Positions 42,665 through 52,301 of a stretch of 52,301 bases of DNA are shown in pieces (the stretch's first letter is position 1; the number at the start of each line of letters is the position of its first letter). The stretch lies in NCBI GenBank assembly GCA_020354555.1, contig CP070648.1:2328807-2381107 (forward strand), given 5' to 3'. The position numbers and the translations under genes were made by a program. The notes below the pieces were generated by a model. That model was not told where the DNA came from and did not search any database. It worked only from the letters and a program-made list of their open reading frames with translations. Source of the DNA: Armatimonadota bacterium (GTDB lineage Bacteria; Armatimonadota; Hebobacteria; GCA-020354555; CP070648).

Positions 42665-43096
42665 GGCGCGAGCCAGGCCAGCTTCGCGGTCCGCCAGAGA
42701 GCCCCGACTACCACCCGCCCGACCGCACGACGGACATCCCCACGACGTCCGTGATTGCCACCCCGCTTGGCGTGAAGCAGTTCGTCGCGTTCGGCGCGAG
42801 GCCACTATGGAATGCCCACGCCATGGTGAGCGGGATGACGAGCAGCGACAGACGCCGCGACGTCGTCTTCGGCTCGGAGAAGAGCCGGCCGAGCAATACC
42901 TCGGTCCACCTGACCCATCGGTAGGTCCGCGCGGCCCGCGTGGCATTGGGGACGGTCGGATAGGCGCCGCAATATCAAATTGCGAGACCGGATGTGGAAT
43001 AACTATGGCGAACCGAATCAGTTCTTCGCTGTGGCTTGCGCGGCCATCGTGGGCCCGCGCCCCAATTCTCATGACGACTCCGGCGTGGAGACGCTG
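42665..43096. other. Intergenic region between polysaccharide and motility blocks
   Basis: There are 432 bases without a convincing gene. A 62-codon minus-strand frame at 42708-42896 has one hydrophobic patch but no ribosome site or family resemblance. The last 100 bases are less GC-rich (around 42970-43010) and probably hold the promoter of the next gene; I could not define it. Confidence 0.45.
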
Positions 43097-44038
43097 ATGA
43101 AAAGAGAGATCAGCGGGACGAGCGTCGCCACCGCGGTCCTACTATTGGCGGCTGCCGTTCTGCTGTGCACCAGACTTGAAAGCCTCGACGCGCCAGCGAT
43201 CAAGCTGCCGGTGCTCGCGGCTCTGCTTACCGAAGGCGCTGTGTACGCTGGGATCATCTACGTGTGGTCTGGGCGGTTCAGTCTGCGCGCGGAGTTGGTC
43301 TGCCTGCCCACGCTGCTCTTGCTGCGCATCGCCGTCTCTGCCGCGGCCGCGGTCGGGGCGGAGCTTGCTGCGGCGCGGCGGCCCCACATCGGGTGGGACT
43401 TCCTGTCGCCGGGGTGGGAGAGTTGGATGACCGCCGCGGCCTTCGCGGTGATCGCGGTCTACCTGGTGCGCGGCGCCCTGATGCCGCCTGAGCGGGCACC
43501 TGCGGAGCGCAGGGCGCACAAGGTGTCAACAGCGCAGCCCACGGCGGCGAAGGTCGCATTCGATTCCCCGCCTGCTCAGGCCGGGGCCGGCGCGAGTGCC
43601 GACGCAGAGGACGCGGGGCGGAACGGCGCAACGGACGCGTCGCTGTTTCAGGTGCTCGACCCGCGCGATTCGGCGCAGTCGCAGATGTCGTCAGCTCCGC
43701 CTATGCCGCAGGTGGAGGGCTGGGTGACCGTGCCCGCGTCGTTGATCGCAGAGCAGCTTCCGCCGGACGCGCAGCTGGAGGTGGACGAGGTGACGATACC
43801 GCTGTCACGCATCATGCCCAGGCTGCGTGAGGGCGAGGTGCGCATCCCGTTGGTCGAGCTCGACGACGTCGTATCCCGGCCCGCCGGGGCGGCCGACGAT
43901 GCGGCGAGCATCGAGCTTCCGCTACCCGCGATCGTGCCGCTTATCCCGGATGAAGCCTTCGACTTGCCGCAACCGAAACCCCCGTCGTGGCTGGCAGCAG
44001 ACGCGGCGCTGGAGGACATATTCTTCGCCAAGGTCTAG
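43097..44038 (+). CDS. Membrane protein with C-terminal IPL-repeat domain, function unknown
   Basis: This 313-residue protein has about four hydrophobic helices in residues 8-135 and a low-complexity Ala-rich linker to about 195. The C-terminal domain shows three copies of a roughly 25-residue pattern: VTVPASLIAEQLP, VTIPLSRIMPRLREGEV and IELPLPAIVPLIPDE, with a further VRIPLVEL. The ATG at 43097 has GGAG six bases upstream. The gene ends 36 bases before the MglA-type GTPase gene and is almost surely cotranscribed. It may be a membrane partner or sensor for that GTPase; I do not know a characterised homologue. Confidence 0.7.
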   Translation: MKREISGTSVATAVLLLAAAVLLCTRLESLDAPAIKLPVLAALLTEGAVYAGIIYVWSGRFSLRAELVCLPTLLLLRIAVSAAAAVGAELAAARRPHIGWDFLSPGWESWMTAAAFAVIAVYLVRGALMPPERAPAERRAHKVSTAQPTAAKVAFDSPPAQAGAGASADAEDAGRNGATDASLFQVLDPRDSAQSQMSSAPPMPQVEGWVTVPASLIAEQLPPDAQLEVDEVTIPLSRIMPRLREGEVRIPLVELDDVVSRPAGAADDAASIELPLPAIVPLIPDEAFDLPQPKPPSWLAADAALEDIFFAKV

Positions 44039-44074: not shown

Positions 44075-44677
44075 ATGGCCTCCGTCAACTATGCACTAAA
44101 AGAGATTTCCTGCAAGATCGTGTACTACGGCCCGGGGATGTGCGGGAAGACAACCAATCTCCAGCACATCCACCATCACACCAACGCCGAGCGGCGAGGC
44201 GATCTGGTCTCGCTCGCCACGCCCGGCGAGCGCACATTGTTCTTCGACTTCCTCCCGCTGGAGGCGCCGAGCCTGCACGGTTTCGAGACGAAGTTCCAGG
44301 TGTACACGGTGCCCGGCCAGGTGATGTACAACTCGACCAGAAAGCTCGTGCTGCGGGCGGTGGACGGGATCATCTTCGTCGCCGATTCGCAGTGGGACAA
44401 GATGCGAGAGAACGTCGAGAGTTTCCGCAACATGGAGGAGAACCTAGCGGGCTACTCGTGCAGCCTGGAGACGACGCCTTACGTGATGCAGTACAACAAG
44501 CGTGACCTCGACAATGTGGCGCCGCTGAGGTTCATGCAGTACGTTCTGAACCCGTGGCAGGTGCCGCATTTCGAGGCGGTCGCTATCGACGGCCGCGGCG
44601 TATTCGAGAGCCTGAACGCAGCGTGCAAGTTGGTGCTCGCCAATCTGCGCGCGAAGCAACAGCGCGGCGCGATGTAG
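44075..44677 (+). CDS. mglA: MglA-type small Ras-like GTPase
   Basis: This 200-residue GTPase has P-loop GPGMCGKT (19-26), a G3-like region YTVPGQVMYNSTRKLVLRAVDGI in which PGQ replaces the Ras DxxG, and a guanine-specificity NKRD. These are features of the bacterial MglA family. MglA sets the leading pole and so controls type IV pilus and gliding polarity in Myxococcus and relatives. No partner MglB (roadblock) gene is next to it. The ATG has AGAGGT six bases upstream. It lies directly before the riboswitch-controlled pilus operon, in keeping with a motility role. Confidence 0.88.
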   Translation: MASVNYALKEISCKIVYYGPGMCGKTTNLQHIHHHTNAERRGDLVSLATPGERTLFFDFLPLEAPSLHGFETKFQVYTVPGQVMYNSTRKLVLRAVDGIIFVADSQWDKMRENVESFRNMEENLAGYSCSLETTPYVMQYNKRDLDNVAPLRFMQYVLNPWQVPHFEAVAIDGRGVFESLNAACKLVLANLRAKQQRGAM

Positions 44678-44768
44678 GGCACCGCCGGTCGTCTCGTTCA
44701 AGCTGTTGCCGATGACGGCCGAAATGTGGAATAAAGCAGTAGAGCCGGGGGGCTTGACAACCAAATAA

Positions 44769-44910
44769 GGGATTTCGGTCGCTGATAAAGGCAAACCCTT
44801 CGCGAGGAGGGGACGCAAAGCCACGGGACTCACCCTGGATGCGGCTTGGCCGCAGTCAGGAACGGCGCGCTGCGCCGTGAGTCAGCCGGGTTGCCACAAG
44901 ACGAAATCCC
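44769..44910 (+). ncRNA. Cyclic di-GMP-I (GEMM-I) riboswitch aptamer
   Basis: The core reads GGCAAACC (44790-44797), a stem CCCUUC/GGAGGG (44796-44811) capped by a GCGA GNRA tetraloop, then GGGACGCAAAGCC (44810-44822), the GEMM-I signature. Stem P1 is GGGATTTCG (44769-44777) with CGAAATCCC (44902-44910), nine perfect pairs, extended by GGCAA/TTGCC (44790-44794 and 44891-44895). The second arm closes with GACTCAC (44827-44833) and GTGAGTC (44877-44883). It is longer than usual, holding two extra hairpins. The position matching Vc2 G20 appears to be G, which fits c-di-GMP rather than cGAMP binding. It precedes the pilus operon by about 150 bases. Confidence 0.93.
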
Positions 44911-44939
44911 CGCGCGCCGCCTGGTGCGGCGTGATATGG

Positions 44940-44985
44940 GGAGCCGTCTTCCGGCAGCCTTGCTGGGGCGGCTCCGCCTTTTGTT
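44940..44985 (+). terminator. Intrinsic terminator of the riboswitch expression platform
   Basis: GGAGCCG (44940-44946) pairs with CGGCTCC (44969-44975), with an inner CAGC/GCTG hairpin. GCC and then TTTTGTT (44979-44985) follow. It lies 29 bases after the aptamer and 73 bases before the PATAN gene start. TCCCC of the P1 3' strand (44907-44911) can pair with GGGGA (44938-44942), so aptamer and terminator are linked by a competing antiterminator. Confidence 0.75.
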
Positions 44986-45057
44986 GGGCGGGCACAGCCG
45001 CCCAGTGTCGCCAGAGCAACTGGCTGCCGGTGGACGGCAGATCCGAGGGATGGCACA

Positions 45058-45753
45058 TTGCCGCTGTATGGCACGTTCGACGAGTTTGGCTTCGCGGAGA
45101 TACTCCAGCTGCTCAACCTGAGTCGCAAGAGCGGCACGTTGACCGTGCGCCAGGGCAGCCTGCAGGGGCTGGTGCATCTGCGCGACGGGCAGGTCGTGGA
45201 AGCCGCCTGCGAGGGCCACAGCGGAGCCCCGGTGATCTATCGGCTGCTGGGGTGGCGCGAGGGGGAGTTCGATTTCAGCCGCAACCTGCGACCGGTGACG
45301 CGCAGCGTTCACGATTCGACCGAAGCGCTCATCATGGAGGGCATGCGGCGGATTGATGAATGGGAGCAGATCGAGCGGGAGTTCACCGACCTCAACGTTG
45401 TGCTGCGCTTGAGGAGCGGCAAGGCGACGGAGCGACACGACGACCTCAGCGACGAGCACCGTACCATCATGAAGCTAGTGGACGCGCGCCGCAATGTGGC
45501 GCAGATCATCCGTGAGAGCGGCATCGAGCCGGTGCAAGCAATCCTCCTCATAACTGAACTCATAAGCCAGGACCTCGTCGAGAAATGGGGCTCGGCGAAG
45601 GTCAGCACTCGGGACCAGGTGGCGCACGTCGAACACACGCCGCCGTCACCGAGCCTGGGCATCGGCAACTACTTCAGCCCGAGCCCGCCCGGCGACACAG
45701 CGGGCGCGCCGGCGGGCGTCCCACCCGCTGAGACAGGAGCAGACGAATCATGA
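45058..45753 (+). CDS. PATAN/DUF4388-domain regulatory protein
   Basis: The 231-residue protein begins LPLYGTFDEFGFAEILQLLNLSRKSGTLTV, the characteristic start of DUF4388 (PATAN) domains, with GLVHLRDGQVVEAACEG and REGEFDF after it. PATAN domains occur in response regulators that modulate type IV pilus motor proteins, for example in cyanobacterial phototaxis. A helical region of about 110-190 and a Pro-rich tail follow; no receiver domain is present. The TTG at 45058 has GAGGG eight bases upstream and gives the family N-terminus. The stop overlaps pilM by four bases, making it the first gene of the riboswitch-controlled operon. Confidence 0.85.
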   Translation: MPLYGTFDEFGFAEILQLLNLSRKSGTLTVRQGSLQGLVHLRDGQVVEAACEGHSGAPVIYRLLGWREGEFDFSRNLRPVTRSVHDSTEALIMEGMRRIDEWEQIEREFTDLNVVLRLRSGKATERHDDLSDEHRTIMKLVDARRNVAQIIRESGIEPVQAILLITELISQDLVEKWGSAKVSTRDQVAHVEHTPPSPSLGIGNYFSPSPPGDTAGAPAGVPPAETGADES

Positions 45754-46913
45754 GCGTTTTCTCGAAGCTCTACGGCGACGCCGACGTCGTCGGCTTGGAC
45801 ATCGGCAGTCACAGTGTCAAAGTCGTACAGTTGGATGAAGAGCGCGGGAGCCTGGTGCTGCGCAAAGCGGGTACCCGCCCGACGCCGGCGGGCGCCACCA
45901 AGGGCGGAGTCGTCACCGATTCCGCCACCGTAGCCCAGACCGTGTCTGCGCTGCTGGGCGCTCTCGAGATCCCGGCGACACAGGTGTTGGCGGCGGTCGC
46001 AGGGCCGACGGTGGTGGTGCGCCAGGTACAGATGCCGTACATGTCGGAGCGCCAACTGCGCAAGTCCATCCAGTGGGAGGCGCGTAGCTACATCTCCTTC
46101 CCGGTCGAGGACAGCATCCTGGAGTTCCAGGTGCTCGGGCAGCGGGACGGCGGCCAGCTCGACGTCATGCTCGTCGCGACGCCCCGCGATATGGTGGAAA
46201 CCCGAGTGGAGGCCCTGGAACGCGCCGGCCTCGAGCCGATTGGCATTGAGCTCGAGCCCTTCGCGACCATGCGCAGCCTGATCGAATTCAACGGGCAGTC
46301 GGCATTCGACACCGAGACGGTCGCGTTGGTCGACAGCGGCGCATCGTTCACCGAGATCAACATCGTCAAGAACCGCAACTTCGTCCTGACGCGCACCATC
46401 CCGATCGCGGGCAACAGCATGACCGAGGCCATCGCCTCGGCGCTCGCCATGGATAACGACAAGGCGAACGCCCTCAAGGAAACCGCGATGCAGGTGGTGT
46501 GCAGCGAGGAAGAGCGCGCCACTCTCGATCCCTTCGCCCAGCAGGCGAGCCGCGCCGTCGAGCCGCTGCTCGACGAGCTGATCCGCGAAATCCGCCGCTC
46601 ACTCGCCTATTACGACTATCAGCAGCAGGCGCCTGCCGAGGATGAGGACCAGAACCGTGCCCCGGGCGTCAACCGCATCATCCTCTCCGGTGGGACGGCC
46701 AAGATGGCCGGGCTCGCCGCCTACTTCCAAGCGCAGCTCGGCGTTCCCGTCGAGCAGGCAGGCATGTTCAGCCACGGGCTGATCCAGACGCCCGGGCTGA
46801 GCCAGGAGTATCTCGACGAGCATTCCCCGACGCTCGTCGTCGCTGCCGGCCTGGCGCTCAGGGAGATCATGCTGAGCGGCAAGCTTAACCTGAGAGCAGC
46901 CGAAGCCCGTTGA
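45750..46913 (+). CDS. pilM: Type IV pilus assembly ATPase-fold protein PilM
   Basis: PilM is an actin-like cytoplasmic protein that binds the N-terminus of PilN and joins the inner-membrane alignment complex. The 387-residue protein shows the actin-fold phosphate loop VVGLDIGSHSVKVVQL (13-28) and the second loop ALVDSGASFTEINIV. IILSGGTAKMAGLAAYF lies near the C-terminus. The opening VFSKLYGDADVVGLDIG and QMPYMSERQLRKSIQWEARSYI are typical. The ATG overlaps the PATAN gene stop, with AGGAG ten bases upstream. Confidence 0.95.
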   Translation: MSVFSKLYGDADVVGLDIGSHSVKVVQLDEERGSLVLRKAGTRPTPAGATKGGVVTDSATVAQTVSALLGALEIPATQVLAAVAGPTVVVRQVQMPYMSERQLRKSIQWEARSYISFPVEDSILEFQVLGQRDGGQLDVMLVATPRDMVETRVEALERAGLEPIGIELEPFATMRSLIEFNGQSAFDTETVALVDSGASFTEINIVKNRNFVLTRTIPIAGNSMTEAIASALAMDNDKANALKETAMQVVCSEEERATLDPFAQQASRAVEPLLDELIREIRRSLAYYDYQQQAPAEDEDQNRAPGVNRIILSGGTAKMAGLAAYFQAQLGVPVEQAGMFSHGLIQTPGLSQEYLDEHSPTLVVAAGLALREIMLSGKLNLRAAEAR

Positions 46914-46941: not shown

Positions 46942-47523
46942 ATGACAAGCATCAACATCAACCTCATCGCCGAGCGCAGAGCACAGAAGCAGCGCAGCGC
47001 CAAACTGCTGCGGCTCGCCGGCTACACCGTCTTGAGCCTGATCGTCGTCATCGGCGTCATGTACGCCTATTTCACGATCGCCATCGGCATCACGCAAGGC
47101 GAGGTCGTGGAATGCGCCGCCAAGCTCAGCGACCCCAAGTTCCGCGCTGATCTCCAACGCATCGAGTATTTGGAGCAGCACTGCGCTGCGCTGGAGCCGC
47201 GAGTGAACCTGCTCGAGGCGGTCCACGGCAGCCAGCAGGCCTGGATCGCGGTCCTGGGCGACCTCAGCCGCTGCATCCCGAACAACGTGTGGCTGACCAA
47301 CGTCCAGTCGCGCCGCGATCAGTCCGGGCAATCCCTGTCCATCGCAGGCTCTGCCGCCTCGCAGCGGGCGGTCGGCGACTTCATGCTGAACCTCAAGCAA
47401 GCGACGTGGTGCGGGGATCCCGTGCTTAACTTCACGCAGACGGTGGGCTTGCTCGACCAGGAGGTGGTGAATTTCGATGTCACCGCCCCGATCAAGCATC
47501 CCATAGGGAGCGAACTCCGATGA
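46942..47523 (+). CDS. pilN: Type IV pilus inner-membrane protein PilN
   Basis: This 193-residue bitopic protein has the INLI-type motif that binds PilM at residues 4-9 (INLNLIAE-like; here ININLIAE). It also has a transmembrane helix of about 26-48, a coiled coil and a periplasmic ferredoxin-like domain (WIAVLGDLSRCIPNNVWLTNV). AGGTGA lies six bases before the ATG. Its stop overlaps the pilO start (ATGA). Confidence 0.93.
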   Translation: MTSININLIAERRAQKQRSAKLLRLAGYTVLSLIVVIGVMYAYFTIAIGITQGEVVECAAKLSDPKFRADLQRIEYLEQHCAALEPRVNLLEAVHGSQQAWIAVLGDLSRCIPNNVWLTNVQSRRDQSGQSLSIAGSAASQRAVGDFMLNLKQATWCGDPVLNFTQTVGLLDQEVVNFDVTAPIKHPIGSELR

Positions 47524-48194
47524 AGATAGCAAATCGCAAGGGCGCCTTCACGATCCTGATTCTCGTCTCGACCGTGCTGTTGTGCCTGGGGGGGTTTGTC
47601 TACCAGACCAAAGTGACGAAGCTGCGCGCGCTGACGCGGGAGCGCAACGACAAGCGCCAGGAACTCCAGGGGCTGCAAGACAAGCTCGCCACGAGGCCGA
47701 TGCTCGAACGCAAGTACTCCAACCTCCAGGAGCGCCTGGCGGTGCTGGAACCGGCACTGCCGACCTACGCCTACATACCGACCTTCCTGCGGCAGATAGA
47801 GAAGCTGGCGCAGGATACGGATAACAAGGTGATGGGCGTCAAGCCGCTGCCGCTCATCGAGCGCGCGCCCACGCCCGCGCCCGCGTCCACCGAATCTCCA
47901 GCGGGAGCTGACGGCGGCGCGGCGCCGGCCGAAGAGCAACTGGCGGCCGACGCACTCTACGACCGGGTACCGATCGAGTTTGATCTCACGGGCGAGTACT
48001 GGCAAACGGAGAAGTTCCTCGAGCGCTTGAGCCAGTTCCCGAAAATGCTGGCGGTCAACGACCTGTCGCTCGCGCCGGCATGTCAGCCGGAGGGCCTCAA
48101 GGCGCCGGACCTGCGCGTGAAGATGAACCTGCTCGCTCTCATCCAGAAAGGGGAAGAGAAATGGACAAGCGACGCAAAGAACTCCTCTTCCTAG
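47520..48194 (+). CDS. pilO: Type IV pilus inner-membrane protein PilO
   Basis: The 224-residue bitopic protein has one membrane helix (about 9-27) and a coiled coil of about 30-78. The periplasmic domain has VPIEFDLTGEYWQTEKFLERLSQFPKML, the usual PilO signature. A Pro/Ala-rich stretch (about 118-142) interrupts it. PilO pairs with PilN to link PilM to PilP and the secretin. GGGAG lies nine bases upstream of the ATG. The last 34 bases overlap pilP. Confidence 0.92.
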   Translation: MKIANRKGAFTILILVSTVLLCLGGFVYQTKVTKLRALTRERNDKRQELQGLQDKLATRPMLERKYSNLQERLAVLEPALPTYAYIPTFLRQIEKLAQDTDNKVMGVKPLPLIERAPTPAPASTESPAGADGGAAPAEEQLAADALYDRVPIEFDLTGEYWQTEKFLERLSQFPKMLAVNDLSLAPACQPEGLKAPDLRVKMNLLALIQKGEEKWTSDAKNSSS

Positions 48195-48769
48195 GGGCAG
48201 GACTGGCGGTTCTGCTGGCAGCCCTGTTTTTCACGTTCAAGCCCACCACGCGGCCGGCGCAGGCGACGACGCAGCCGCCGCCGAGCGCGACGGCGCGCGA
48301 GCCGTCTGACTTGGCCTCGGCACGCATCGAGTCGTCGGCGGCGCCGATACCGATGAGCCAAGGCGGGACGACGGCCGGGCGTAATCCCTTTGCGCCCGTG
48401 ATCGCCGCGCGGCCGGCCTCCGCACCGGGCTCCGCGCCGCCGGCGATGGTGGCCGCAATGCCGCCGGCGCCCCTGCCGCCGATCGAGCCCATGCGCCTGG
48501 AGCTATTCGGCCCGCCGGATCAGGCGTCCCCGTCCGGGGTCATAACGCCCGCGGCGGAACCGACGCCGGCGCAAGCGACTCTGCGCCTCACCGGCGTCAT
48601 CTACGGTGACCCGTCCATGGCGATCATCCGCAAGGGTGACAAGCGATACTTCGTGCGGCCCGGCGACCCCGTCGGTGGCCGCTACATGGTTCAGTCCATA
48701 GCACGTCGGCAGGTGGTCCTCGCCAGCAGCGAGGGGACACTTCGCCTCGACCTAACAGGGAGGTTGTAA
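48161..48769 (+). CDS. pilP: Type IV pilus protein PilP-like
   Basis: The 202-residue protein has an N-terminal hydrophobic helix (about 9-25), so it is a bitopic rather than lipoprotein form. A Pro/Ala/Ser-rich periplasmic linker follows. The C-terminal beta domain reads LRLTGVIYGDPSMAIIRKGDKRYFVRPGDPVGGRYMVQSI, the homology region of PilP/GspC that contacts the secretin. The ATG at 48161 is chosen because GGGGA lies six bases upstream. It lies between pilO and pilQ, as expected for PilP. Confidence 0.88.
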   Translation: MDKRRKELLFLGAGLAVLLAALFFTFKPTTRPAQATTQPPPSATAREPSDLASARIESSAAPIPMSQGGTTAGRNPFAPVIAARPASAPGSAPPAMVAAMPPAPLPPIEPMRLELFGPPDQASPSGVITPAAEPTPAQATLRLTGVIYGDPSMAIIRKGDKRYFVRPGDPVGGRYMVQSIARRQVVLASSEGTLRLDLTGRL

Positions 48770-48772
48770 GAC

Positions 48773-50473
48773 ATGACCCGCAGAGCAATCCCCAACCGAA
48801 AGTTGTCCCCTCCGCAGGCACGCGCCTGGCTGTGCCTGGTGCTCAGCGCAGCGGTGCTGTTGCCGCTCGCCGCGGCGCCTGTGGCAGCGCAAGGGCCGGA
48901 AGCCCTCCCCGGGACGCAGCTTTTCGCTGCGGCGGACCCGGCGGCTGGAGGGAAGCGTTTCAGCCTCGATTTCGTCGCCACCGATCTGGTCGACGTGATC
49001 AAGGCGCTCGCGGCCCAGAGCGGCGCGAACATCGCGGTGAGCAGCACGGTGTCCGGCACGGTCACGCTGCGGCTGAGTGAAGTCACGGTCGAGGAAGCCC
49101 TGACCGTGATCAGCAAGATCAACAGCCTCGAGTTCGCCAAGATCGACAGCACCTACGTTGTGGGCACGCCGGAGGAGGTCAAGGCGTTGGTTGCGGAGCC
49201 GCCGGCTCCGGATCAGCCGTTGACTGAGGTCGTCGCCCTGCAGTACGTGCCCGCTGAGGACGCCATGGCGATCATCGGCGACGTGGAGCCGCAGGTCACG
49301 TGCAAGGCCAGCCCCACCGGCGGGCTGATCCTGAATGGGACGCCCGCTGCGCTCGAGCGCGCGAAGGCGCTGCTCGCGGGCGTCGACGTGGCGCCCGCGA
49401 TGGGCATCGCGGAGCGCGCCATCTACACGATCAAGTACGCCGATCCCAGGGAGTTCCAGGAAACACTGGAAACGGTGTTCCCCGATCTGAAAGTGACGCC
49501 GGCGCCGCGGTCGAGCACGCCGACGGTGCAGCCCGCCGCCAGAGGGGGCGCGCTGCAGGGCGGGATGGCAGCACTGGCTGCGCCGCAGTTGTCGGCGCAG
49601 GGCCAGCAGCCCGGCGGCGCGGGCGGAGTAGGCGGAGCCGGTCAGACGCAGGAACTCTCCCACGTCAGCAAGCTGGTTCTGAGCGGCGCGCCGGCGACGC
49701 TCACGCGTGCCCTCAAGCTGTGCGAAGAGCTCGACGTCCCGCCGATGCAGATCAAGATCAGCGCCACCATCACCGAGGTGCGCCAAGACGTGGAGAAGCG
49801 CCTCGGCATCAACTGGCAGGACCTTGCGGGCAAGGCGGGCATCATCGTCGGTGAGGCCTCCCCGTCGGAGTTCGACAGCGGGTTGTCCGCCGCCGAGGTC
49901 GCGGCCCACGATCTGAAGCTCGGCAGCATCATGCGGTCACACCTCAGTATCGCCGGCGCGATCAACGCGCTGGTCACCGAGGGCAACGCCCGCATCATGG
50001 CCAACCCGACCATCATGATTCTCGACGGCCGCCAGGCGACGATCCACGCGGGCGAGAAGATCTACTACCCGCAGATCGTCGGCTACACCCCGCTCGGCGG
50101 CCAGATCGTCCAGGCCACGGAGATTGACGTCGGCGTGACGCTCATGGTCAACCCGCGGATCGGCCCTGACAGCGAGATCACGCTGACCCTCGTGCCGAGC
50201 ATCAGCTCTATAACGACCAGCGTGTTCGACGGATATCCGACGATCACCGAGCGTTCAACCGTGACCACCGTGCGCGTCAAGAGCGGTGAGACGCTGGCCA
50301 TCGGCGGATTGATCCGCGACGACGAGACAATCAACGTCAACAAGGTGCCGTTGCTGGGCGACATTCCCGTCATCGGCGACCTGTTGTTCAAGTCAACGGT
50401 GAGGCATCCGGTGCGCTCGGAGGTGGTGATCATCATCACACCCGAGATCGCGGAGTCGGGGGCCGCGAGCTAG
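48773..50473 (+). CDS. pilQ: Type IV pilus secretin PilQ
   Basis: PilQ forms the outer-membrane channel for the pilus. The 566-residue protein has a signal peptide (cleavage near residue 40, PVAA-QG). An STN/N0-like domain follows (about 62-125, FVATDLVDVIKALAAQSGANI), then N1 NolW-like repeats (about 145-320) interrupted by a Gly/Ala-rich linker at about 250-295. The C-terminal secretin domain contains ANPTIMILDGRQATIHAGEKIYYP and the VPLLGDIPVIGDLLFKS signature. No AMIN domain is seen, so it is shorter than proteobacterial PilQ. GGGAGG precedes the ATG by nine bases. Confidence 0.95.
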   Translation: MTRRAIPNRKLSPPQARAWLCLVLSAAVLLPLAAAPVAAQGPEALPGTQLFAAADPAAGGKRFSLDFVATDLVDVIKALAAQSGANIAVSSTVSGTVTLRLSEVTVEEALTVISKINSLEFAKIDSTYVVGTPEEVKALVAEPPAPDQPLTEVVALQYVPAEDAMAIIGDVEPQVTCKASPTGGLILNGTPAALERAKALLAGVDVAPAMGIAERAIYTIKYADPREFQETLETVFPDLKVTPAPRSSTPTVQPAARGGALQGGMAALAAPQLSAQGQQPGGAGGVGGAGQTQELSHVSKLVLSGAPATLTRALKLCEELDVPPMQIKISATITEVRQDVEKRLGINWQDLAGKAGIIVGEASPSEFDSGLSAAEVAAHDLKLGSIMRSHLSIAGAINALVTEGNARIMANPTIMILDGRQATIHAGEKIYYPQIVGYTPLGGQIVQATEIDVGVTLMVNPRIGPDSEITLTLVPSISSITTSVFDGYPTITERSTVTTVRVKSGETLAIGGLIRDDETINVNKVPLLGDIPVIGDLLFKSTVRHPVRSEVVIIITPEIAESGAAS

Positions 50474-50534: not shown

Positions 50535-50601
50535 TTGCGTGCCGCGATAGAGGACCGATGCATCGCGGCCGACGACGTAGGCAAGGGTGACAGGCAAAGG
50601 G

Positions 50602-52301
50602 ATGGAGTCTCAGCAGAAATTCGTCACAGAGCTGGTGCGTGAGTTCACCAACCTCACCGACGACCAACTGCACCAGGCAATAGAGATCCAGAAGGAGACC
50701 AAGGAGCCGCTGCCCCAGATCTTGGTCAACATGGGCCTTATCAACGAGAAGGATAAGGCCAAGTGCCTGGGCCGGCAGTGGGGGATCCCGTTCGTTGACC
50801 TGTCGGAGCGGCAGCTCGACAAGGAACTCATCAAGGTCATTCCGCGCCACCTGCTGCAGCGCCTGCGCGCCGTGCCCCTGGAGCAAAGCGGCCGCAAGCT
50901 CACGGTCGCGATGGTCAACCCGCTGGATATCTTCGCGATAGACCAACTGCGGCTCGTGGCCGGCCTCGAGATCGAGCCCGTCATCGCGACGGACGAAGAC
51001 ATCAGCAATGTGCTGACGCAGGCCCACGCGGTGAGCGAAGAGATCGGCGCAGCCATCAAGCAGGTTGCGGAAGAGGTCGGACAAGCCGACATCAGCGAGA
51101 TCACGTTTGAGCACAAATCCGCGGAGGAAGAGCTCACTGCCGATCAGTTGAAGGAACTCACCGAGGACGCGCCGGTGGTGCGCCTGGTGAACCTCATCAT
51201 CCAGCAGGCGTTGCGCGACTCCGCGAGCGACATCCACATCCAGCCCGAAGCGAATCGCGTCCGCGTGCGCTATCGCATTGACGGTATCCTGCACGATAAG
51301 ATGGTCGTGCCCAAGCAGGTGCAGGCGGCGTTGGTGTCGCGCGTCAAGGTGATGGCGGAAATGGACATCGCCGAGAAGCGAGCCCCGCAGGACGGACGCA
51401 TCTCCCTGCTCATGAACAACCGGGAGTTCGACTTCCGTATCTCGACCTTCCCCGGAGCGCACGGCGAGAAAGTGGTCATGCGCGTTCTCGACAAGCGCGG
51501 GGTGCAAGTCAACCTCAACAAGCTCGGCATTCCCGCGAGCATGATGGAGGAATTCGACAATCTCATCAACCGCACGTACGGCATCATCGTGGTGACCGGG
51601 CCCACCGGCAGCGGCAAGTCAACCACGCTGTACTCGGTGCTCAACAAGATCAACGGCCCCGAAAAGAACATCATGACTATCGAGGACCCGGTGGAGTACC
51701 AGCTCCCGGGGCTGACGCAGGGACAGGTCAACCCGCGCGCCGGCGTCACCTTCGCCTCGGCGCTGCGCACCATGCTGCGCCAGGACCCGGACGTCATGCT
51801 GGTCGGCGAGATGCGCGATGCCGAGACCTCCCTCATCGCCGTCGAGGCGGCGTTGACCGGCCACCTCGTGCTCTCGACACTGCACACCAACGACGCTCCC
51901 AGCGCGGTCACCCGCATGCTGGAGATGGGGATCGAGCCGTTTCTCATCGCCTCGTCGGTCATCGGCGTCCTCGCGCAGCGGCTGGTGCGTGTGATCTGCC
52001 CCGACTGCAAGGAGGCGTACACGCCGCCGGTGGATGCGTTCCGGCGCCTCAATTTGGCGATGGATATGGAGTCGGTGACGTTTTACCGCGGCCAGGGGTG
52101 TGATCGCTGCATGAACACGGGCTACCGCGGACGCATCGGTGTGTTCGAACTCATGGCTATTAACGACAGCATCCGCGAACTCGTCCTGCGGATGACAGAG
52201 GCTCACTCGATTCGCCTGGAGGCGCTCGATTCATTAATGTTTACGCTGCGCCAGGTTGCGATGCAGAAGTTCCTGGAGGGCTTGTCGACGATGGTGGCAG
52301 C
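50602..52301 (+). CDS. pilB: Type IV pilus extension ATPase PilB (cut by window end)
   Basis: At least 566 residues are visible and the frame is open at the window edge. The N-terminal MshEN-like domain (about 1-150) contains LPQILVNMGLINEKDKAKCL; in some PilB/MshE proteins such domains bind c-di-GMP. The catalytic part has the Walker A motif GPTGSGKS (333-340), the Asp box DPDVMLVGEMRD, the His box GHLVLSTLHTNDAPS and the zinc site Cys466, Cys469, Cys500 and Cys503. The large size and MshEN domain fit PilB, not PilT. The ATG at 50602 has AAAGGG directly before it; an in-frame GTG at 50587 is possible. Confidence 0.95.
   Translation, partial: MESQQKFVTELVREFTNLTDDQLHQAIEIQKETKEPLPQILVNMGLINEKDKAKCLGRQWGIPFVDLSERQLDKELIKVIPRHLLQRLRAVPLEQSGRKLTVAMVNPLDIFAIDQLRLVAGLEIEPVIATDEDISNVLTQAHAVSEEIGAAIKQVAEEVGQADISEITFEHKSAEEELTADQLKELTEDAPVVRLVNLIIQQALRDSASDIHIQPEANRVRVRYRIDGILHDKMVVPKQVQAALVSRVKVMAEMDIAEKRAPQDGRISLLMNNREFDFRISTFPGAHGEKVVMRVLDKRGVQVNLNKLGIPASMMEEFDNLINRTYGIIVVTGPTGSGKSTTLYSVLNKINGPEKNIMTIEDPVEYQLPGLTQGQVNPRAGVTFASALRTMLRQDPDVMLVGEMRDAETSLIAVEAALTGHLVLSTLHTNDAPSAVTRMLEMGIEPFLIASSVIGVLAQRLVRVICPDCKEAYTPPVDAFRRLNLAMDMESVTFYRGQGCDRCMNTGYRGRIGVFELMAINDSIRELVLRMTEAHSIRLEALDSLMFTLRQVAMQKFLEGLSTMVA

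Follow-up and report, generated by a model that had tools for sequence, protein, structure and literature searches.

In Geobacter metallireducens, the pilM riboswitch is a GEMM-I element that responds to cGAMP and acts as an ON switch (PMC9262584), and in G. sulfurreducens a GEMM-Ib element lies before pilMNOP (PMC6456294). In Clostridioides difficile, pilA1 (the primary pilus operon) is preceded by a c-di-GMP-II riboswitch that is also ON (PMC4744006, PMC11656802), and the flagellar operon is controlled by Cd1, a c-di-GMP-I riboswitch that is OFF (PMC9262584, PMC4744006). The earlier pilin riboswitches named in a preliminary description of the present locus, namely the C. difficile c-di-GMP-II switch before pilA1 and GEMM variants in Geobacter, match these reports (PMC4744006, PMC9262584); its implication that a riboswitch over a pil machinery operon would itself be novel does not survive them, as GEMM-I pilM operons are known in Geobacter (PMC9262584, PMC6456294). 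The present study suggests, with good confidence, that a class-I c-di-GMP riboswitch, most likely a transcriptional OFF switch, occupies the 5′ leader of a PATAN–pilMNOPQB operon in an Armatimonadota bacterium. This is not a new riboswitch class. New are the host lineage, the presence of a class-I c-di-GMP sensor at pilM, and a polarity predicted to be OFF; our literature search found no paper joining Armatimonadota and riboswitches. Riboswitch control of pilus assembly would thereby extend to a little-studied diderm phylum, with a predicted polarity opposite to that of the known pilus riboswitches. Beyond the preliminary description, the analysis adds this predicted polarity, the restriction of the arrangement to one family, its insertion in an ancestral operon, and a wider set of pilin-linked riboswitches in the class.

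The host, previously taken to be a Terrabacteria-like diderm, is indeed a Terrabacterium, an Armatimonadota bacterium near Ca. Hebobacteria, and carries a secretin. We compared its genome (G000) with that of a sister genus (G001), and sampled the class as 14 genomes in our collection together with two named MAGs, Armatimonadetes S016_27 and Ca. Hebobacteria Meg22_1012_Bin_273. Across the window, by which we mean the whole 52,301-nt stretch analyzed, the sole Rfam match at the gathering threshold (cmscan/Infernal) is RF03167 (c-di-GMP-I-GGC), on the plus strand at 44781–44899, with a score of 65.9 bits against a gathering threshold of 59 (E 2e-13). RF01051, the GEMM model that the preliminary description had put forward as the check on its call, scores 65.2 bits at the same site against a threshold of 35 (E 3e-12 for the whole genome). 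With both models above gathering and every landmark found, the GEMM-I core proposed upstream of the pil genes is confirmed. In numbering by alignment to Vc2, the key residues G20, A47, and C92, chosen as c-di-GMP contacts after published work (PMC3764141, PMC4744006), fall at 44790, 44817, and 44894. GGCAAACC occupies 44790–44797, the GNRA loop is GCGA (44802–44805), and GACGCAAAGCC lies at 44812–44822. P1 lies outside the covariance model and pairs 44769–44776 with 44903–44910 (8 pairs) and 44778–44780 with 44900–44902 (3 pairs) around one bulged G, which makes 11 pairs in place of the nine first counted; the eight pairs made by its 5′ strand (the P strand, 44769–44780, partner 44900–44910) are identical in the sister genus. 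The element thus shares G20, A47, C92, the GNRA loop, and the P1–P2–P3 fold with Vc2 and the RF01051 c-di-GMP-I family. It differs from Vc2 in its pil operon target, in a short-loop-type P3 sequence found also in other aptamers of the same bacterial family, and in 44 nt inserted into the P3 loop (about 44833–44878), which fold on themselves. This insertion, the only structural oddity, is missing from the sister genus.

The choice of ligand deserves comment, because RF03167 is narrowly the best-scoring name, outscoring RF01051 by 0.7 bit, and the RNA might accordingly sense a variant ligand, either as an RF03167 GGC variant or as a cGAMP (GEMM-Ib) sensor. However, the RF03167 consensus GACGCGAA has G where GACGCAAA of the window has A, at 44817, a mismatch in the covariance-model alignment that falls on the A47 position. 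A G at this position is presumably the defining mark of the GGC variant, judging from the Rfam consensus and from the name, and we did not take the RF03167 label at face value, since A occupies the position. Likewise, the A20 that marks the cGAMP (GEMM-Ib) class is absent from the window aptamer, where the residue is G (44790). Position 20 is the one that steers selectivity between c-di-GMP and cGAMP (PMC9262584). The genome's own GGDEF proteins also argue against a variant ligand in that they mostly keep GHxxGD, with one GHQTGN; their active-site motifs are GG[DE]EF with one AGDEF, and no EAL domain was found among the genome's proteins. A variant ligand is therefore very improbable, and c-di-GMP is the expected ligand, because 44817 is A rather than the G of RF03167 and because G20, A47, and C92 are canonical. 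Among 76 Armatimonadota aptamers, counted with a pattern script after three odd assignments had been corrected by eye, A47 is present in essentially all and G20 in all but one. The exception, L084 in genome G032, carries A20 (TAGCAAACC), as a cGAMP-type GEMM-I aptamer would be expected to; its relative L095 (G045) has G.

Downstream of the aptamer, a Shine–Dalgarno-like GAGGG (45045–45049) stands 8 nt ahead of the TTG start of a 231-residue PATAN (DUF4388) protein (45058–45753; PF14332, E 3e-25), whose sister-genus orthologue is 76% identical. There follow, all on the plus strand, pilM (45750–46913; PF11104, E 1e-50), pilN (46942–47523; PF05137, E 1e-13), pilO (47520–48194; PF04350, E 1e-10), a pilP-like gene of the T2SSC family (48161–48769; PF11356, E 3e-7), the pilQ secretin gene (48773–50473; PF00263, E 4e-43), and pilB, encoding an extension ATPase with T2SSE and MshEN domains (50587–52301, running past the window end; PF00437, E 9e-134; TIGR02538 596 bits, under its cut-off of 676). 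Pfam thus bears out each gene of the PATAN-to-pilB series first read at this locus, in the pilM-N-O-P-Q order of type IVa pilus assembly operons. The operon is not the complete one described earlier. The next genes beyond pilB lie on the opposite strand, neither a major pilin nor a prepilin peptidase is among the operon genes seen, and the pilT and pilC orthologues (88% and 85% identical to those of the sister genome, where both directly follow pilB) are at 3.82 Mb, 1.4 Mb from the operon at 2.37–2.38 Mb; several further pilB/pilT paralogues are present in the genome. The earlier proposal that one second messenger commands the entire pilus apparatus must therefore be narrowed: with pilT, pilC, and the pilins elsewhere in the genome, the switch would govern the alignment complex, the secretin, and the extension motor. 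The upstream neighbor, an MglA-like small GTPase gene identified by Pfam (44075–44677, plus strand), is not downstream of the switch. It is preceded by a gene for a protein with no Pfam family (42992–44038), an order that both named MAGs repeat with proteins of 28% and 23% identity.

The leader contains the candidate elements of a transcriptional switch, all on the plus strand. The switching A strand (44884–44911), composed of the aptamer 3′ half, including C92, and the 3′ strand of P1, can pair either within P1 or with the T strand (44938–44964), which comprises the 5′ arm and loop of a terminator and is conserved in L043. The resulting antiterminator encloses a 7-pair hairpin (44914–44932), in which the sister genus differs at both nucleotides of two pairs yet retains the pairing. 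The intrinsic-terminator-like hairpin (44940–44948/44967–44975; -29.3 kcal/mol), a terminator-like match in our scan, is followed by a U-rich tract at 44979–44985 (44940–44985 overall) and ends in the tail GCCUUUUGUU; its U-tract is weak, UUUUGUU here and UUUGUCC in the sister genus. Its nine pairs are kept in G001, with one change from UG to UA. The A/T duplex is predicted at -35.4 kcal/mol, a value equaled by none of 1,000 dinucleotide shuffles, and that of the sister genus at -32.2 kcal/mol, with 5 of 1,000 shuffles as good. Elsewhere in the class, terminator-like hairpins are likewise found downstream of aptamers.

When the leader is folded at increasing lengths, P1 belongs to the minimum free energy structure up to synthesis of the T strand. 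Completion of the loop turns the balance to the antiterminator (-104.4 kcal/mol versus -96.9 with P1 forced); in the sister genus the gap at this point is small (-72.2 versus -69.2, 3.0 kcal/mol). Once the H strand is made, P1 plus terminator wins, and the final structure prefers this combination even without ligand. The antiterminator must therefore be a kinetic trap, as has been argued for Cd1. Computation thus shows the aptamer, its canonical ligand residues, and mutually exclusive terminator and antiterminator helices that a second genus conserves; ligand binding, termination efficiency, and polarity in vivo are inferred. Without ligand, 44884–44911 would pair with 44938–44964 as the terminator loop is transcribed, and RNA polymerase would read through to the operon genes. 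Binding of c-di-GMP would keep P1 and the pocket, of which C92 is part, closed and hold the A strand there, so that the terminator (44940–44975) and its U-rich tract could form and transcription would stop. High c-di-GMP would then mean that less alignment complex, secretin, and extension motor is made.

Strand for strand, this is the arrangement of a Cd1-like OFF switch: the aptamer 3′ strand and the terminator 5′ arm form the antiterminator, and aptamer and terminator are compatible. The two systems share a c-di-GMP-I aptamer, the P/A/T/H strand logic, and OFF polarity, predicted here, although Cd1 controls flagella, not pili. The Geobacter pilM switches share with the window the aptamer fold, the position in a pilM-operon leader, and a transcriptional mechanism, but they sense cGAMP, are ON, and build the terminator from an aptamer strand, whereas the window has G20 and is predicted to be OFF. 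The C. difficile pilA1 switch likewise places type IV pilus expression under c-di-GMP by means of an RNA, but through a class II aptamer, with ON polarity, and in a monoderm host. A c-di-GMP-I ON switch, in which ligand blocks termination or exposes the ribosome site, would have the precedent of the two well-described pilus riboswitches, each of them ON (PMC9262584, PMC11656802). We consider it unlikely here: P1 shares no nucleotides with the terminator hairpin and both can form together, the strand competing with the terminator is the 3′ half of the aptamer itself, which ligand binding would withhold, and no pairing of the aptamer with the start codon, 73 nt beyond the U-tract, is conserved.

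Conservation bears on whether the RNA regulates at all. The 44-nt P3 insertion might be read as a sign of a decayed or nonregulatory GEMM aptamer followed by a fortuitous hairpin, but it sits in a variable loop and folds on itself, and two genera retain the core of the aptamer together with P1, terminator, and antiterminator, whereas their leaders cannot be aligned beyond the terminator. One-sided changes between the genera (GC/GU, UG/CG, and UG/UA) preserve the pairs of the helices. Covariation support is thin because our data hold only two orthologous leaders. Decay has, in our judgment, the slightest chance of the alternatives weighed here.

A candidate promoter for the regulated transcript, with the core TGTGGAATAA at 44725–44734 (plus strand) and a predicted transcription start at about 44742, is suggested by a motif shared upstream of the class's aptamers. 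This motif precedes essentially all 28 GEMM-I aptamers of the class and, by a looser pattern, 2 of 47 in other classes, and in an anchored alignment of 50 sites ATCTCA stands ~16 nt upstream and position +17 is a purine. The window itself has a poorly matching -35 region. A TTGACA at 44754 was rejected as a -35 box, as it has no -10 at proper spacing and the conserved TGTGGAATAA ~30 nt upstream is the better candidate. TGTGGAAYAA occurs in the window at 44725–44734 and 42993–43002, and exact copies in G000, mostly intergenic and often with ATCTCA ~16 nt upstream, number 25 versus 3 for a reversed control. It is probably a clade-specific promoter. A pilus-only regulon signal was rejected, since the motif precedes not only prepilins but also a GGDEF gene, CheW/CheA, a MerR gene (with FlgM/FlgN further on), ParA, an S1-domain gene, and other genes.

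The PilB N terminus (50587–50760) matches MshEN (PF05157), a domain whose RLG motifs bind c-di-GMP (PMC5013675). All 12 PilB orthologues compared within the class lack an intact copy of either motif, and dual control through PilB was set aside as unlikely because both are degenerate. Since the protein site looks degenerate across the class, the pilus machine may receive its c-di-GMP input mainly through the RNA.

Within the class, an aptamer lies near PilM in 2 of 14 genomes, G000 and G001, which belong to one family; it is absent at the 12 other PilM loci and in the two named MAGs, and a class-wide riboswitch–pilM linkage was rejected. In nine other class genomes and the two named MAGs (which may be among the nine), only 15–27 nt separate mglA from the PATAN gene, evidently as one operon, versus 380 nt in G000 and 387 nt in G001, a gap that holds the candidate promoter, aptamer, and terminator. 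The spacing in relatives makes it probable that the switch is a later arrival within an older operon, and the simplest reading is that the G000/G001 family gained a switch cassette there. A switch inside an operon that is unbroken in relatives is a clear example of an RNA switch entering an existing operon. Its origin by duplication of a resident aptamer is plausible because, without the P3 insertion, it is 91% identical to the aptamer at 260141; identity to the minor-pilin aptamer is 56%. In the full scenario, an ancestral mglA–PATAN–pil operon would have acquired, by duplication of an aptamer-leader cassette already resident, a c-di-GMP-I OFF switch that represses the type IV pilus machine. 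Its polarity would be opposite to that of the pilus switches of C. difficile and Geobacter, and another c-di-GMP aptamer would already control minor pilins in the class. This scenario strikes us as having about an even chance of being correct.

Four aptamers, the window's included, are present in the genome, and three of the four are linked to pili or prepilins. One precedes a single prepilin gene, that at 260141 precedes DUF11/FlgD_ig-type surface proteins, and another precedes PilV-like, prepilin, and PilX-like genes, an arrangement also found in G001, G003, G007, G010, and G012. The aptamers of these minor-pilin operons (PilV-like, second prepilin, PilX-like), at L038, L041, L048, L050, L058, and L064, recur throughout the class, and terminator-like hairpins accompany most of them; a polarity assignment was set aside, since the folds show terminators but no clear antiterminator. 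On a reading of the sequences, c-di-GMP-I aptamers in other Armatimonadota classes precede ParA/ParB-like genes (L076, L077, L089, L098), in some cases with a short FlgM-like protein encoded first, and tandem c-di-GMP-I aptamers occur in G023, G032, and G045 (L074, L075, L086, L096).
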